This document shows, piece after piece, positions 3,049 to 24,460 of a stretch of 33,832 nucleotides of DNA. Both the position numbers and the translations under genes were made by a program. Position 1 is the first letter of the stretch. Each line of letters begins with the position of its first letter. Source of the stretch: Candidatus Versatilivorator vitaminiformans (lineage in GTDB: Bacteria > Acidobacteriota > Terriglobia > Versatilivoradales > Versatilivoraceae); contig JAPVWS010000145.1 of NCBI GenBank assembly GCA_027493295.1, forward strand, positions 1 through 33,832, read 5' to 3'. The notes beneath the pieces were generated by a model. It was not told the DNA's origin and did not search any database. It worked only from the letters and a program-made list of their open reading frames with translations.

Positions 3049-4197
3049 ATGAGACGCATCGATTTGCGCACAGCCGTGATCGTGCTGATTCTGGCCAACC
3101 TCCCGACCTGGATCGTTATTTTCTTCACGGTCGACCAGGCCAAGACGGCTATCGAGGAAGAAGTAGCCGCCAACTTCAGGGCGATTGCCGGAAACAACGC
3201 AGCCACCATGAGCTATGCCGTCAACAACCTGGTCAGAGAAGTGGAAACCTTGGCCGTAAACGCTGCGGTTCGAGATGCCATTGTGGCCGGAAACGCTTCC
3301 TATCCGAGATCTCCCGACGCGGTGCGCCGAAAAATCTCGGCCATCGAGCTAGCCTGGTTGGAACCCCAGGGGGAAGCCACGGTTCAACGGATTCTCTCCA
3401 ACCCTGCCTCCCGATATTTGAGACGTTTCGTGACCATCAATCCGGCCTTTCGGCGCATCACCGTTACCGATCGATTCGGTGGAACGGTGGCGGCCAATGT
3501 CAAGCCCATCGACTTCGAGCAGGGAGACGAGCCCTGGTGGCGCCAGAGTTACAAGGATGGCGTCAGCGGCCAGGTGGTCATTGAGGATGTGCGTTTCGAT
3601 CCCCTGACCGAGATCAACGTACTGCACATCGTCGTCCCCGTGGTGAACAAATCGCCGGAGGAGGTCATCGGGGTCATCGGCGTGGCCGTTGACATCAACG
3701 ACCTCTTTCTTCTGGTTACGGGAACTCCCATCGGAGCTACCGGAAACATGTCGTTGGCTCGGGAAGACGGCACCATTATCGGCAGCGAAGTGGTGGATTT
3801 CCCCCCTGCCGAGTCTGGTGATCCTACCTCCACTGAGAGTGAGACGTCTGGCCACCTGGTGGCCGCTCAATTGAGGGAGGTGCCCTATTTCGATGAAATT
3901 CTCAACGCCCTGCGGCAGCCGGGTCAGCCGGATTTCATTGAAGCCACGGCCCTTGGGGGCGGCAGAAAGATGGTGGCCTTCAGGCAGGTGCCCTTGTCAT
4001 CCGAATACCCCCAAATTCGTTGGATTTCCATTGTCGAACAGGACATGAGCGAAACCCATATCGCCGTCGATACCATGAACCGCCATCTGCTGCTGGCAGC
4101 GCTGGGGATCCTGGTCGTAACCATTGGACTGGCCATTTACCTGGCCACCCATGGGAAGATGGAAGTCACCGACATTGCGGAAACGAAGAAAGGTTGA
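3049..4197 (+). CDS. Membrane-anchored Cache-domain sensor protein without an output domain
   Basis: A 382-residue protein with an N-terminal membrane helix (residues about 8-27, TAVIVLILANLPTWIVIFF), a periplasmic domain of about 310 residues, and a second helix near residues 347-366 (LLLAALGILVVTIGLAIYLA). Only about 16 cytoplasmic residues follow. The extracellular part has double-Cache (dCache_1) features: the helical stretch NNAATMSYAVNNLVREVETLA, RITVTDRFGGTVAANVKP with DEPWWRQSY, and VIGVIGVAVDINDLF. In chemoreceptors and histidine kinases such domains bind small ligands. Here no HAMP, kinase, GGDEF or MCP domain follows before the stop at 4197. The start is supported by AAAGGAGG six bases upstream. 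It converges with the porin gene (12-base gap). Ligand and partner are unknown. Confidence 0.8.
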   Translation: MRRIDLRTAVIVLILANLPTWIVIFFTVDQAKTAIEEEVAANFRAIAGNNAATMSYAVNNLVREVETLAVNAAVRDAIVAGNASYPRSPDAVRRKISAIELAWLEPQGEATVQRILSNPASRYLRRFVTINPAFRRITVTDRFGGTVAANVKPIDFEQGDEPWWRQSYKDGVSGQVVIEDVRFDPLTEINVLHIVVPVVNKSPEEVIGVIGVAVDINDLFLLVTGTPIGATGNMSLAREDGTIIGSEVVDFPPAESGDPTSTESETSGHLVAAQLREVPYFDEILNALRQPGQPDFIEATALGGGRKMVAFRQVPLSSEYPQIRWISIVEQDMSETHIAVDTMNRHLLLAALGILVVTIGLAIYLATHGKMEVTDIAETKKG

Positions 4198-4209: not shown

Positions 4210-5493
4210 TCACTCGTCGCCGAACCCGAAGCTGTACACGAACCCAATCAGGAAAACGCTCTGGCTCGTGACCAGATCGTCGGCTCCCGAGACGAAGAAG
4301 GGCTGGTCAGACCAGTCGTAGCGGTATTCGAACTTGGTGCTGAAGTTCGGGCGCGCACGATAGTCGGCCGTCAGGGTGATTTCCTTCAGGTCTTGGGAGA
4401 TCCCGGTAGCAAAGGCATCTTTGTCCGCGAAGTATTCAAAGCGTGGTGAAAAAGCCCACTTCTTGTCGGTAGTGCTGAAACGCACGGCGCCGGCAATGCC
4501 CTGCCAGGCCGTTCGCTCGAAATAGGGCAGGTCCTCGGCATCGTATCCATAGTCATAGTTGATCAGCACCTCCACCTGGTCGTTGACGCTGGCGCTGATG
4601 ACAGTGTCGAAAAGATGCCTCCAGGGGCTGTTGATGCCATCCAGCTCAGGGCCTCCCAGATACCCCTGGCTGATGCTGAAATTGTCGTTTGGCGAAACCG
4701 CGATCGACCAGCCGACGCTCTTCCCGGTATTGTTGTCGGTGGAGTTGTTCCAGCCGTTCACAAGATAGAACCCCACGTCCACCGTATCCGAAACCGAATA
4801 ACTGGTGCGGACTCCGGTGTGGTAGTAGGGCTGGGCGAAGCCGAAGAGAATCGATTGCTGGTATTGAAAGTTGTCGATCGTGTCCAGCACTTCCGCACCC
4901 ACAAAGGTTCCGAACTTGCCGACATCGACGGTCAAGCCGTCACCGACGGGGGCGATGTAGCTCACGTAGGCCTGTTGAATGTTCTTGATGATTTCCTGCT
5001 GGCCGCCAACGGGCTCAAAAGAGTGGTAGGTGTCGGCCGCCGGACCGTAGACCAGATCGATGCGGTAGCCCAGGCTGTTGGTCTCGCCGGCAGGCCGGTC
5101 GAAAACTATTTTCGCCAGATCGAACTGAAAGCTGTTGTGTCTGGTATCCAGGCCACGAAGGTCGACAATACCGCTGTCGGGATCGTTTGAGTTATAGCCG
5201 TAGTAGGCATCGACATATCCACTGACTTTGGTCGCCTTGAAAAAATCCAGTATGGGCGCCGTGTCGCTGGGTTCCGTCTCAGGAGCCGCCTCGCCGGGTG
5301 TGGATTCGGCGGCCGGTTCGGTTTCCTTGGAGGTGGCTTTGCGCGTCCCTTCCAGTTCAGCGATCCGTTCCTCCAGTTTCTTGATTCGATCCAGCAACTC
5401 CTCCTGACTGCTGTCCTGTGCAAGGGCCACACCACTCGACAAGCCCGAGGCCAGCAGTCCAGCCATAAGCAACCTGGCCCAATTCTTTTTCAT
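4210..5493 (-). CDS. Outer-membrane beta-barrel porin (BBP2/OmpL-like)
   Basis: A 427-residue secreted protein. I place the start at the ATG at 5493 (MKKNWARLLMAGLLASGLSS), because it begins a classical signal peptide ending near ALA-Q and has an AAAGGAT ribosome binding site. A longer open frame upstream reads through a terminator hairpin and is not credible. After the signal come a short coiled-coil (residues about 30-50, EELLDRIKKLEERIAELEG), a Ser/Pro/Glu-rich linker, and about 330 residues of alternating aromatic/polar beta-strands (VSGYVDAYYGYN, YRIDLVYGP, VDVGKFGTFVGAEVLD, FEYRYDWSD). It ends in an aromatic-rich strand (LIGFVYSFGFGDE). This matches the putative beta-barrel porin-2 family, which forms outer-membrane channels of mostly unknown substrate. 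It is downstream of a structured, terminator-bearing leader. Confidence 0.85.
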   Translation of the reverse strand: MKKNWARLLMAGLLASGLSSGVALAQDSSQEELLDRIKKLEERIAELEGTRKATSKETEPAAESTPGEAAPETEPSDTAPILDFFKATKVSGYVDAYYGYNSNDPDSGIVDLRGLDTRHNSFQFDLAKIVFDRPAGETNSLGYRIDLVYGPAADTYHSFEPVGGQQEIIKNIQQAYVSYIAPVGDGLTVDVGKFGTFVGAEVLDTIDNFQYQQSILFGFAQPYYHTGVRTSYSVSDTVDVGFYLVNGWNNSTDNNTGKSVGWSIAVSPNDNFSISQGYLGGPELDGINSPWRHLFDTVISASVNDQVEVLINYDYGYDAEDLPYFERTAWQGIAGAVRFSTTDKKWAFSPRFEYFADKDAFATGISQDLKEITLTADYRARPNFSTKFEYRYDWSDQPFFVSGADDLVTSQSVFLIGFVYSFGFGDE

Positions 5494-5557
5494 TGCTATC
5501 CTTTTCCTTTCCGGTCCCATTAGTCCCTTAGTGCGAAACTCTATAGAGGCCCCAAAT

Positions 5558-5608
5558 AAAAAAAGACGTCCATCGGCACGAGTCCCCGCTCGGATCCAAT
5601 GGACGTCT
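5558..5608 (-). terminator. Rho-independent terminator upstream of the porin gene
   Basis: On the minus strand a 10-base perfect stem (AGACGTCCAT at 5608-5599 pairing with ATGGACGTCT at 5573-5564) contains an inner CGAG/CTCG stem and is followed by a run of T (5564-5558). This is a textbook intrinsic terminator for minus-strand transcription. It lies about 65 bases before the porin start codon. It either ends a small RNA or attenuates porin transcription; it could also stop read-through from the cytochrome gene. Confidence 0.85.
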
Positions 5609-5690
5609 CTGTCCAAATCACCACCACCGGGCCACTCCCGTCGGCGGTGGGCGATCTATCCCCCCCGATACGGCTCTGTATCGAAGAAGT
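5558..5690 (-). ncRNA. Candidate small RNA or attenuator leader in front of the porin gene
   Basis: A minus-strand promoter-like pair is followed by a short transcript with three predicted hairpins. They are CGATAC/GTATCG (about 5682-5665), a GC-rich CCACCGCC/GGTGGTGG hairpin (about 5650-5621, with one G-U pair) and the terminator stem (5608-5564) with its T-run. The inferred RNA is about 130 nt and overlaps no gene. Its promoter, folding and terminator are visible in the sequence. Whether it is a free small RNA, a riboswitch or a protein-bound leader cannot be told. I compared it by memory with common riboswitch motifs and recognised none. Confidence 0.5.
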
Positions 5691-5696
5691 GAGCTC

Positions 5697-5724
5697 ATTG
5701 TAGAGTTACCGCTCCGATGGTCAA
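5697..5724 (-). promoter_or_regulatory. Promoter for the porin leader / small RNA
   Basis: TTGACC (5724-5719), 16-base spacer, TACAAT (5702-5697) on the minus strand. Each box matches 5 of 6 consensus positions. It lies in the gap between the cytochrome stop (5801) and the porin, and would start an RNA near 5690. Confidence 0.6.
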
Positions 5725-5800
5725 AATCAGTTTTGTTTATGCCAACTATCAATACAGATTATGGATTGCCGGCTCACTCGCGGGTTATCTACCGCGGTCC

Positions 5801-6382
5801 TCACTGGTTCAACTCGTGACAGAAGTGGCATTCCAGGGAGGCTCCCTGGGACTTGTGGCAATCCATGCAGTGCTCCATTGAAGTCGGGATCTCTTGCTTG
5901 AGCCTGTCCCGTAGCTCCACCGCGCCGTGGCAGGTCGTGCAGGTGGCTCCGGAGTCCAGGTGCTCCTTGTGGCTGAAGAAGACGAAATCGGGGATCTTGT
6001 AGACCCGGACCCAGGGAATGGTTTCGCCCTTTTGCTCGTACCCCTCCAACAAGACTCCAACAGGAGTGCTTTCTCCCTTGCCTCCACGGTGACAGGAGAG
6101 GCAAAGAGCTACGGAAGGAAAGCCTGCACTACCGCCTCTACCCTCCATGGTATGGCAACTGGAGCAATTCAACCCCAGTTGACTATGGCTGCGATGGCTG
6201 AAGGGGAGCGGTTGCGGGATCGGCTGCGAATCGTTCCGACTTTGCGACGAAACTTGGTGAGCACCGGAAATCCAGGGGACCGCCGCCAGCAAGGCCAGGC
6301 AGACCGTGTGAATCGACGTTCTGGCACCCCACTGTAGTAGACCCTCCGGAATTTTGGGCATGGGGGCGACCGGTCCGACCAT
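5801..6382 (-). CDS. Multiheme c-type cytochrome (five CXXCH sites)
   Basis: A 193-residue secreted protein with an N-terminal hydrophobic signal (residues about 23-41, SIHTVCLALLAAVPWISGA). It has five heme-attachment motifs: CSSCH, CLSCH, CTTCH, CMDCH and CHFCH. Extra histidines in FSHRSH and FFSHKEH resemble the axial ligands of the cytochrome c3/c7 class. It would carry electrons in the periplasm. The ATG lies two bases after the TGA of the PQQ dehydrogenase gene upstream, so the two genes are almost certainly translated together. This cytochrome is therefore the likely electron acceptor of that enzyme. The last heme motif is only four residues from the C-terminus (CHFCHELNQ), an unusually tight end. 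Family is clear; the partner is inference from gene order. Confidence 0.85.
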   Translation of the reverse strand: MVGPVAPMPKIPEGLLQWGARTSIHTVCLALLAAVPWISGAHQVSSQSRNDSQPIPQPLPFSHRSHSQLGLNCSSCHTMEGRGGSAGFPSVALCLSCHRGGKGESTPVGVLLEGYEQKGETIPWVRVYKIPDFVFFSHKEHLDSGATCTTCHGAVELRDRLKQEIPTSMEHCMDCHKSQGASLECHFCHELNQ

Positions 6383-6385
6383 TGT

Positions 6386-8287
6386 TCAAGGCAAGGCGAA
6401 GGCTACCAGGGCATCGCCATAGCTGTCGTTGTACTTGTTGCCGCCACCGGCGGCGATGACCACCAGTTGCTTCTTCAAATGGCGCGACCAGAAGGTCATG
6501 GGGGTTGCATGCCCGCTGAAATCCAGCCGGGTAACCCAAAGCTGGCGGCCTGTTTCGGAGTGGAAGGCCCGAAAGCGGCGGTCATTGGTGGCTGCAATAA
6601 ACACCAGGCCGCCGGCTGTCACGATGGAGCCACCCAGGTTGGGTGAGCCTGTTCCGGTGATCCCGCGAGCTGCCAGTTTTTCCACCAGGCCGAGCGGCAC
6701 CTGCCAGCGCAAGCTTCCCCGGTTCAGGTCGATAGCCGTCAGGGTGCCCCAGGGAGGAACCTGACAGGGCAGCCGCCTGGAATCCCAGAAACGACCCTGC
6801 CGAATCCCCCGGGCCATGTAGGGCAGTCGACTCCCTGCCCGCCCTTCCACCATCTTTACCACCTGGCCCACGTCCATGGAGTTGACGAACAACAAGTTCA
6901 AGGTGGGATCGTAGGATGCCCCGCCCCAATTGGGTCCGCCGTTGGTGCCCGGAAACAGCACCGTGTACTCCAGGCCTGGCGGTTGATACATCTTGCCCAG
7001 GTTTGCATTCTCCAGAATTGTCCGGCACTCGGCCTCCGTTTCGGGATCCAGCCGATTGATTTCTTCGGGCGTCATTCCTTGACGGGCAATGGCCGGAGGC
7101 TTGAGCGGCACCGGTTGGGTCGGCCAGGCTTCCTCCCCGGGAACCGGGCTGGGGGGAACGGGCCGCTCTTCAATCGGGAACAGGGGTTTTCCCGTCACCC
7201 GATCGAACAGGAAGACGTACCCCATCTTGGTGATTTGGGCCACCGCAGGCACGATTGTTCCCTGGCGGCGCACGTCAACCAGATTGGGTTGCGCCGGCAG
7301 GTCCCAGTCCCAGAGGTCATGATGAGTGATCTGGTAGTGCCACAGACGCCGCCCGGTGCGAACGTCCAGGGCTACCAGGCAATCCCCGAACCAGTTCTTC
7401 CCCTTGCGCCCGCCGCCGTATCGGTCCGGGGAGGGAGAGCTCACCGGGAGATAGAGGATGCCTCGTTCGGCATCGCAACTCATGGGAGCCCAGACGTTGG
7501 TCCCTCCCCGGCCTTTCCAGGACTCTCCTTCCCAGGTGTCGTTCCCCACCTCGCCAGGTCCGGGTACCGTGTTGAACCGCCAGACCAGTCGCCCCGTATC
7601 GGCATCGAAGGCGCGGACGTCTCCATCGGGGCCCTCGGGCAGACCGTCCGACACCACCGAGCCCACAATTACCAGGTTCTCAAAGATCAATGGTGGTGAA
7701 CTCACTCCGTAGATGCGCTTCGGAAAGCGGTCGGCCATGCCTGCTCTAAGATTCAGGACACCGCCGCTGCCGAAACTCGCGACCGGCCGCCCGGTGCGGG
7801 CATTCAAGCCAAACAGCCGCCCGTCCAAAGTTCCCCAATAGAGCCGTTTCTGCTTGCCCCGGCGCCAAAAGGCCGGGCCGCGATTGATGAACAGGTTGTA
7901 GGGCCGATGCTTGTCGAGCTTGGGGTCGAAGGCCCAAAGCTCCTTACCCGTCGCCGAGTCCAGAGCGACCGCACGGCCAAAGGGGGTGGTCAGGTAAAGG
8001 ACTCCGTCCACCTCCAGGGGTGTGCATTCAAAGGCAGACCGCACCGGATACTTCGATCCATCGCTGACGTCGCCGGTATGGTAGGTCCACGCGACTTTCA
8101 GTTGCGCGACGTTGTTCCGGTTGATCTGGTCCAGGGCCGAATATTTCCGTGCGGCCAGATCCCCCCCGTAGTGTGGCCATTCCTGAGGAAGGATTTTCAC
8201 GGTGGCTGCCGGCAGACTGAGCAGCAACACCGGCAAGCCCCATCGCAGCCACGCAACGAGGCGCAGATATCTCAAGGGAAGCTTCAT
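6386..8287 (-). CDS. PQQ-dependent dehydrogenase (quinoprotein alcohol/glucose dehydrogenase type)
   Basis: An eight-bladed beta-propeller quinoprotein, 633 residues from the ATG at 8287. A GTG at 8317 would add ten residues; neither start has a good ribosome binding site. A signal sequence/anchor (LRYLRLVAWLRWGLPVLLLSLPAA) precedes the propeller, which opens with WPHYGGDLAARKYSALDQIN, typical of PQQ dehydrogenases. Repeated tryptophan-docking signatures are visible (ALDSATGKELWAFDP, AFDADTGRLVWRF, ALDVRTGRRLWHYQITHHDLWDWD, AFHSETGRQLWVT). It oxidises an alcohol or sugar in the periplasm with PQQ and Ca2+; the substrate cannot be read from sequence. It lacks a fused cytochrome domain, which the adjacent multiheme cytochrome may replace. 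No PQQ biosynthesis genes are in the window. Confidence 0.9.
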   Translation of the reverse strand: MKLPLRYLRLVAWLRWGLPVLLLSLPAATVKILPQEWPHYGGDLAARKYSALDQINRNNVAQLKVAWTYHTGDVSDGSKYPVRSAFECTPLEVDGVLYLTTPFGRAVALDSATGKELWAFDPKLDKHRPYNLFINRGPAFWRRGKQKRLYWGTLDGRLFGLNARTGRPVASFGSGGVLNLRAGMADRFPKRIYGVSSPPLIFENLVIVGSVVSDGLPEGPDGDVRAFDADTGRLVWRFNTVPGPGEVGNDTWEGESWKGRGGTNVWAPMSCDAERGILYLPVSSPSPDRYGGGRKGKNWFGDCLVALDVRTGRRLWHYQITHHDLWDWDLPAQPNLVDVRRQGTIVPAVAQITKMGYVFLFDRVTGKPLFPIEERPVPPSPVPGEEAWPTQPVPLKPPAIARQGMTPEEINRLDPETEAECRTILENANLGKMYQPPGLEYTVLFPGTNGGPNWGGASYDPTLNLLFVNSMDVGQVVKMVEGRAGSRLPYMARGIRQGRFWDSRRLPCQVPPWGTLTAIDLNRGSLRWQVPLGLVEKLAARGITGTGSPNLGGSIVTAGGLVFIAATNDRRFRAFHSETGRQLWVTRLDFSGHATPMTFWSRHLKKQLVVIAAGGGNKYNDSYGDALVAFALP

Positions 8288-8359
8288 GACGAAGGGACCA
8301 GGAGCTCGAGAATCCACGGATTGGCGGCTGGAATCGGAGGAGAAGGAGATAATGGGGAC

Positions 8360-23852: not shown

Positions 23853-24460
23853 GAGTCACCCTCGTTGGCCCGCTTCAGGCTCCATCCTAACACCGCTCCC
23901 GATCCAAGACAACCGACGGCGGACGCCAACAAAAATTGGCCGACATGTAACTCTCCCCTTGGCACTTGTAACGCTCGATTGGATGGGTGGATGCTTAGCC
24001 TTTCTTGGACGGGCACTGCGGTGCTGCACGACGCACCTGATTCGTCGCATACGCGGCCAGGGCGGCGCGCAGGATCAGGAAACCCCGGGCTGCGCTCTGG
24101 CGAGGCTGTGCGTTGCGGGACCCGGCTCTTGATTCGCCGCCTTCGCGGCTGGGTTGGAGCAGAACCATACGACCCCGGGCTGCCGCCCGGGGCTACCCTG
24201 AGCCGCTGCTACGCAGCTCTATAAGGATGGCTTGTAGTAAGCGTTTCCTTGCCTACCCACTCCAACCGCAGCTTCGCAGCTCTCCCCTAACCCACAATGC
24301 TGCTGAGCGTGGAAATTTCTTTCGGTTAATGTCTGGCCCCAGTAGGGGGGCACTTGATCCACGGATCTCCCTTCACAACTTTGTCGTACAACCGTGTTCG
24401 TGGATCCGCTTCTTGCTGCAAGGCCGGGTTTGGTAACATGGGTTTGTAGGAGGATTTGCA
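23853..24460. other. Intergenic region rich in GC tandem and palindromic repeats
   Basis: About 600 bases between the divergent STN-like and thioredoxin genes, with no credible gene. It holds the tandem/hairpin repeat at 24037-24227 and an 8-base inverted repeat (GATCCACG / CGTGGATC, around 24357 and 24400) just before the thioredoxin gene. No strong sigma70 promoter was recognised. Confidence 0.6.
24037..24227. repeat. Two-unit degenerate tandem repeat with a CCCCGGGC hairpin
   Basis: Two units about 91 bases apart share the pattern CTGATTCG, CGCGGC, then ACCCCGGGCTGC 44-45 bases later (starting at 24037 and 24128). The second unit ends in a perfect hairpin, CCCCGGGC-TGCC-GCCCGGGG (24173-24192), followed by a GCTGC/GCAGC hairpin near 24203. 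It looks like an intergenic palindromic repeat family. Strand and function are unknown. Confidence 0.55.

Follow-up and report, generated by a model that had tools for sequence, protein, structure and literature searches.

A probable ANTAR-type transcription attenuator, with widely separated hairpins, in the leader of an acidobacterial BBP2 porin gene

Described ANTAR targets and the porin locus

The described systems closest to the one considered here are those of EutV and eutP in Enterococcus faecalis, NasR and nasF in Klebsiella oxytoca, and AmiR and amiE in Pseudomonas aeruginosa. The targets of ANTAR proteins consist of two hexaloop hairpins in which the loop bases A1 and G4 are essential and the closing pairs important, the second hairpin serving also as the 5' arm of a terminator (PMC3369931); mutation of eutP in particular showed the importance of A1, G4 and the closing pairs (PMC3369931). 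Such targets mostly precede nitrogen genes (Ramesh et al., PMC3369931). The words "acidobacteria" and "porin" were not found in the main text of that 2012 study, and open-access papers searched for ANTAR in combination with Acidobacteria or porin yielded nothing relevant.

The window analysed here is a stretch of 33,832 nucleotides from Candidatus Versatilivorator vitaminiformans (Acidobacteriota; contig JAPVWS010000145.1). It carries on its minus strand a gene for a BBP2 (OmpL-like) outer-membrane porin (4210..5493, start codon at the 5493 side; Pfam PF07642, E 9e-77) and, upstream of this and on the same strand, a c-type cytochrome gene (5801-6382). Between the two lies the porin leader (minus strand, 5724 to 5558), in which a promoter, three hairpins and a terminator are present as real features. 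As to the wider surroundings, genes for a multihaem cytochrome of the c7 type and a PQQ-dependent dehydrogenase occupy 5801-8317 (minus strand) upstream of the leader, and a gene for a dCache_1 sensor-like protein (3049-4197, plus strand) adjoins the porin on the other strand.

An earlier note on this DNA proposed that the leader was a small RNA or a new riboswitch. That is not the best reading: given two A1/G4 hexaloops, the second of which overlaps the terminator, the presence of ANTAR proteins, and similar leaders at nitrogen genes, the region is very probably a transcription attenuator of the ANTAR type, serving a porin linked to nitrogen. In common with the eut, nas and ami systems, the leader has two A1/G4 hexaloop hairpins (here called P1 and P2), the second of them sitting in the 5' arm of an intrinsic terminator, the genome encodes an ANTAR protein, and the genes downstream are nitrogen-related; with eut leaders specifically it shares AC/GU closing pairs. 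It differs from all three in that P1 lies 45-64 nt from P2 in the window's family, the intervening segment usually forming a hairpin, and in having a GAF-GAF-ANTAR regulator, a BBP2 outer-membrane porin as target and a host among the Acidobacteriota.

Structure and conservation of the leader

The promoter TTGACC-16-TACAAT (5697..5724, minus strand) is of the sigma-70 type, with 10 of the 12 consensus bases. Alone this match means little, since chance would give about as many such sites (3 found, 3.4 expected, in 12 kb of the window); what bears out the promoter proposed in the earlier note is that the porin leaders of each of the family's four genera, and one leader of the ammonium transporter gene amt, are preceded by the same hexamers 16 nt apart, while ahead of the leader of an ANTAR gene the spacing is 17 nt. 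Sequence comparison also picks out a conserved A/T-rich element immediately upstream (5725..5746, minus strand), reading CATAAACAAAACTGAT in the window and CATAAAATAAAT in relatives, which could be an UP element or an activator site. A CATAAAATAAAT-like block stands directly 5' of the -35 hexamer in nearly all leaders (L033-L038 among them), and in genera g2 and g4 it is preceded by TTATG-N5-CATAA; possibly this arrangement is an activator site common to the porin and amt promoters.

The leader RNA, of about 143 nt, folds at -67.5 kcal/mol (z = -4.2), and none of 200 shuffles was equally stable; three stable hairpins, the last with a T-run, had been noted earlier between the two same-strand genes, and the fold agrees. 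All lie on the minus strand. The first, P1 (5660..5689), is a 12-bp stem (GAUAC-AGAGCC-GUAUC) bearing the hexaloop AGAGCC, with A1, G4 and AC/GU closing pairs, and is the putative ANTAR recruitment hairpin. It is followed by a middle hairpin (about 5614..5658) that differs in sequence between genera and has no A1/G4 hexaloop. P2 (5600..5615; UGGAC-AGAGAC-GUCCA, hexaloop AGAGAC, again with A1 and G4) is the predicted antiterminator and overlaps the 5' arm of the intrinsic terminator (5558..5607), which comprises the stem GACGUCCAUUGG / CCGAUGGACGUC (stem hairpin 5607-5565) and a run of seven T. A perfect stem of 10 bp had been claimed here; the stem is slightly longer, having 12 pairs, of which 11 are Watson-Crick and one is G-U. 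About 65 nt separate the terminator from the start codon of the porin, a placing that had rightly been likened to that in attenuated leaders.

Folding calculations on the window RNA give P2 a pair probability of 1.0 in a nascent transcript ending just past it, whereas in the full-length RNA the terminator is favoured over P2 by 15 kcal/mol; it follows that the default state should be off and that something must hold P2. P2 is favoured in the same way in nascent RNA from most porin leaders. Its nascent probability is low in the amt leader (0.23) and in the ANTAR-gene leader (0.07), and this counts against an ANTAR attenuator. A descriptor combining the P1 hexaloop, the P2 hexaloop and an overlapping terminator, which was composed after the element had been seen, matched the window once, at the leader, and did not match any of 200 dinucleotide shuffles. 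The sequence shows promoter, P1, P2 and terminator, the last two predicted to be mutually exclusive, and with these the region very probably opens the porin mRNA as its 5' leader. A possible leader peptide, from an open reading frame in the window that begins with TTG in the terminator stem and continues in frame with the porin, was set aside, the frame not being kept in a related genome (G001).

The earlier note had suggested looking upstream of BBP2 porins in related genomes for the hairpins and for compensatory base changes, and both are found; the lack of conservation that would have told against its observation did not emerge. By covariance model, the leader is kept in 11 of 12 genomes, representing all four genera of the family, always ahead of the same BBP2 porin (orthologues of the window's porin, 52-89% identical, stand behind it in the four genera), and it stays with the porin while the gene upstream varies. 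A DNA search of 101 relatives recovered it, at 94-100% identity, from each of the genus's seven genomes, with partial matches in a second genus; when both genera are aligned the promoter, P1, the block UUUGGACAGAGACGUCCAUUGG and the terminator are kept, and the middle region differs. Across 12 distinct leader sequences 94% of pair cells hold standard pairs, and 12 of the 24 pairs have changed on both sides, as against 3.7 in shuffles, a count tilted towards structure by the alignment having been fitted to the covariance model. Seven of these lie among the 12 pairs of P1, whose closing A-U and C-G pairs are invariant, and five among the 12 pairs of the terminator, where 96.5% of cells are paired; the terminator's 5' arm is almost constant, as its dual use in P2 and terminator predicts, while the 3' arm drifts via G-U pairs. 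The P2 stem, GGAC/GUCC, is invariant in all 13 leaders, and covariation therefore lends P2 no separate support. In the loops, A1 and G4 of P2 and G4 of P1 are present in 13 of 13, and A1 of P1 in 11; its replacement by G in one genome (G011) and by U in the ANTAR-gene leader of another (G010) counts against an ANTAR attenuator.

Such conservation within the genus, together with a promoter of its own and a strong terminator, would also suit an autonomous trans-acting small RNA of about 130 nt that merely adjoins a porin with its own promoter, and terminated transcripts of about that length should in any case arise. We nevertheless regard this as very unlikely: in four genera the RNA immediately precedes the porin despite changing upstream genes, and it recurs before further nitrogen genes; its best-conserved part is the dual-use hairpin and not an unpaired seed; and inspection by eye of the interval between terminator and porin start codon revealed no conserved second promoter.

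The element at other genes and its regulator

Covariance models were built from the porin leaders alone, or from these and the first new matches, and the searches were blind to gene. They nonetheless led to leaders of amt (in G008, L037) and of the ANTAR gene itself (in G010, L038), and more weakly to that of glutamine synthetase III (in G007, L078), a match backed by a P2 and terminator of its own. In another family of the class, matches fell before two genes for NifA-like sigma-54 activators (L089, L090) and at a divergent glnK/amt pair (L091); the leaders of that family have dual hexaloops and short linkers, its amt leader carrying G at position 1 of P2. One of the NifA-like leaders (in G041; L089 1230-1290) has three consecutive A1/G4 hexaloops instead of two, and this may link the canonical arrangement to the spaced one of the window's family. 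Ramesh et al. 2012 predicted nitrogen-type ANTAR regulons (e.g. in Desulfotomaculum and Pelobacter) in which amt, P-II, glutamine synthetase and nitrogen-fixation genes likewise have such leaders. Several further matches were set aside: weak and partial ones without a terminator in G146 and G380 (L025, L026) were judged false, as were the weak matches L040 (G000:C176), L075 and L077, while four extra pattern matches (L092, L095, L108, L118) had no terminator by the descriptor.

Gene order points the same way in genus g2, where glnD comes next after the porin (G007, G010), with two amt genes beyond it in G007; in G010 two amt genes and a P-II gene form a group on a separate contig. In genus g1 the strict pattern matched essentially only the porin leader, so that this test links no other nitrogen gene there, and was not found in the upstream regions of amt; this counts against the proposed reading. 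Taken with the co-occurrence of ANTAR genes described below, the recurrence of the leader at nitrogen genes and the porin-glnD-amt cluster of g2 support a nitrogen-linked role for the porin, whose substrate may be a nitrogen compound.

An ANTAR protein (PF03861) is encoded in all 12 genomes of the family, once in each save for two copies in G010; those that were read are of the form GAF-GAF-ANTAR, and the copy in the window's genome is interrupted by a contig end. Alignment with EutV, whose RNA-contacting residues have been named (PMC8934654), shows identity at R142, K143, K149, E160, Y164 and M172, and arginine in place of K147 (the numbering of the EutV chain being offset by 2). Among 41 genomes sampled from the class, ANTAR proteins occur in 23, which include all nine with model matches (six of the nine, it should be said, being close relatives from one family), and none of the 18 genomes without ANTAR has a match. 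A scan of a contig database gave matches confined to the window's clade; named records belonging to that clade are metagenome assemblies of Acidobacteria or Terriglobia, several with marine sample names. It is from the A1/G4 hexaloops with their AC/GU closing pairs, the overlap of P2 with the terminator, the presence of an ANTAR protein throughout the family and the similar leaders at nitrogen genes that binding of an ANTAR protein to the leader, and antitermination by it, may be deduced.

That the distribution of the element follows ANTAR genes also bears on the possibility that the leader is a metabolite-binding riboswitch of a new class, or some other protein-independent attenuator, which we think still less probable than a small RNA. 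A terminator with an alternative pairing and no Rfam match is what such a reading would lead one to expect, and the claim that no known riboswitch class matched was upheld by a covariance search of the leader against Rfam, in which no family reached its gathering score at gathering or permissive thresholds. Yet it is only in the two short hexaloop hairpins that bases are conserved, and there is no pocket-like conserved core because the middle region differs between genera. The Pseudomonas small RNA P11 (RF00625) resembles the leader mainly in the sequence of its terminator hairpin (12.7 bits, against a gathering score of 70), with no further convincing structure in common. Elsewhere in the window (24173-24218, plus strand) an Acido-Lenti-1 RNA (RF01687) was matched at 42.8 bits, above its gathering score.

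Spacing, mechanism and meaning

Attenuation of the ANTAR type is itself a known mechanism, and what is new here is the unusual spacing of P1 and P2. The linker between them is 52 nt in the window, insert included, and 45-64 nt in the family, the insert having a good fold in certain genera and a poor one in the rest; the short linker of eut leaders (5-12 nt) is absent from the window leader. In eutP of E. faecalis, antitermination was lost or much weakened when the linker measured 14 nt or was lengthened by 20 nt (PMC3369931, PMC8934654), and this counts against an ANTAR attenuator here. The 2012 definition of ANTAR targets permits a variable linker (Ramesh et al. 2012), and for this reason the long linker marks a variant and does not exclude the leader from the class. 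On balance we lean, though only slightly, towards a structural variant of the ANTAR target, its recruitment hairpin displaced by this distance, through which a GAF-GAF-ANTAR protein turns on a BBP2 porin in nitrogen scavenging.

Under the proposed mechanism, transcription of the porin would start near 5690 and by default would end after about 133 nt, when the strong terminator forms. A signal, presumably nitrogen status to judge from the context of the regulon, would activate the cell's ANTAR protein, with its two GAF sensor domains and RNA-binding ANTAR domain, which would grip the A1/G4 hexaloop of P1 first and then P2; the folded insert could draw the two together. As P2 occupies the 5' arm of the terminator, its stabilisation would keep the terminator from forming, and RNA polymerase would continue into the porin gene. 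The least probable of the alternatives is that the leader is bound by ANTAR mainly as a decoy, the terminated RNA of about 133 nt titrating the protein as EutX/Rli55 does EutV (decoy RNAs for EutV being known, PMC8934654), for despite two predicted binding hairpins and a short transcript that would accumulate, the mutually exclusive P2 and terminator and the constant place before the porin suit control in cis better, and genus g1 has few other targets to compete for.

If attenuation by an ANTAR protein at this wide spacing is what the leader provides, it would call into question the rule, based on eutP, that an ANTAR target needs its two hairpins close to each other in sequence, and the BBP2 porins of the clade would be channels for nitrogen compounds. 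The matches at other genes indicate, as far as sequence can, that amt, glnK, glutamine synthetase III and NifA-like genes are under the control of RNA antitermination in this acidobacterial class. An uncharacterised porin family would thereby be placed under a nitrogen-type regulator, and this gives a testable prediction of substrate in a largely uncultured clade.
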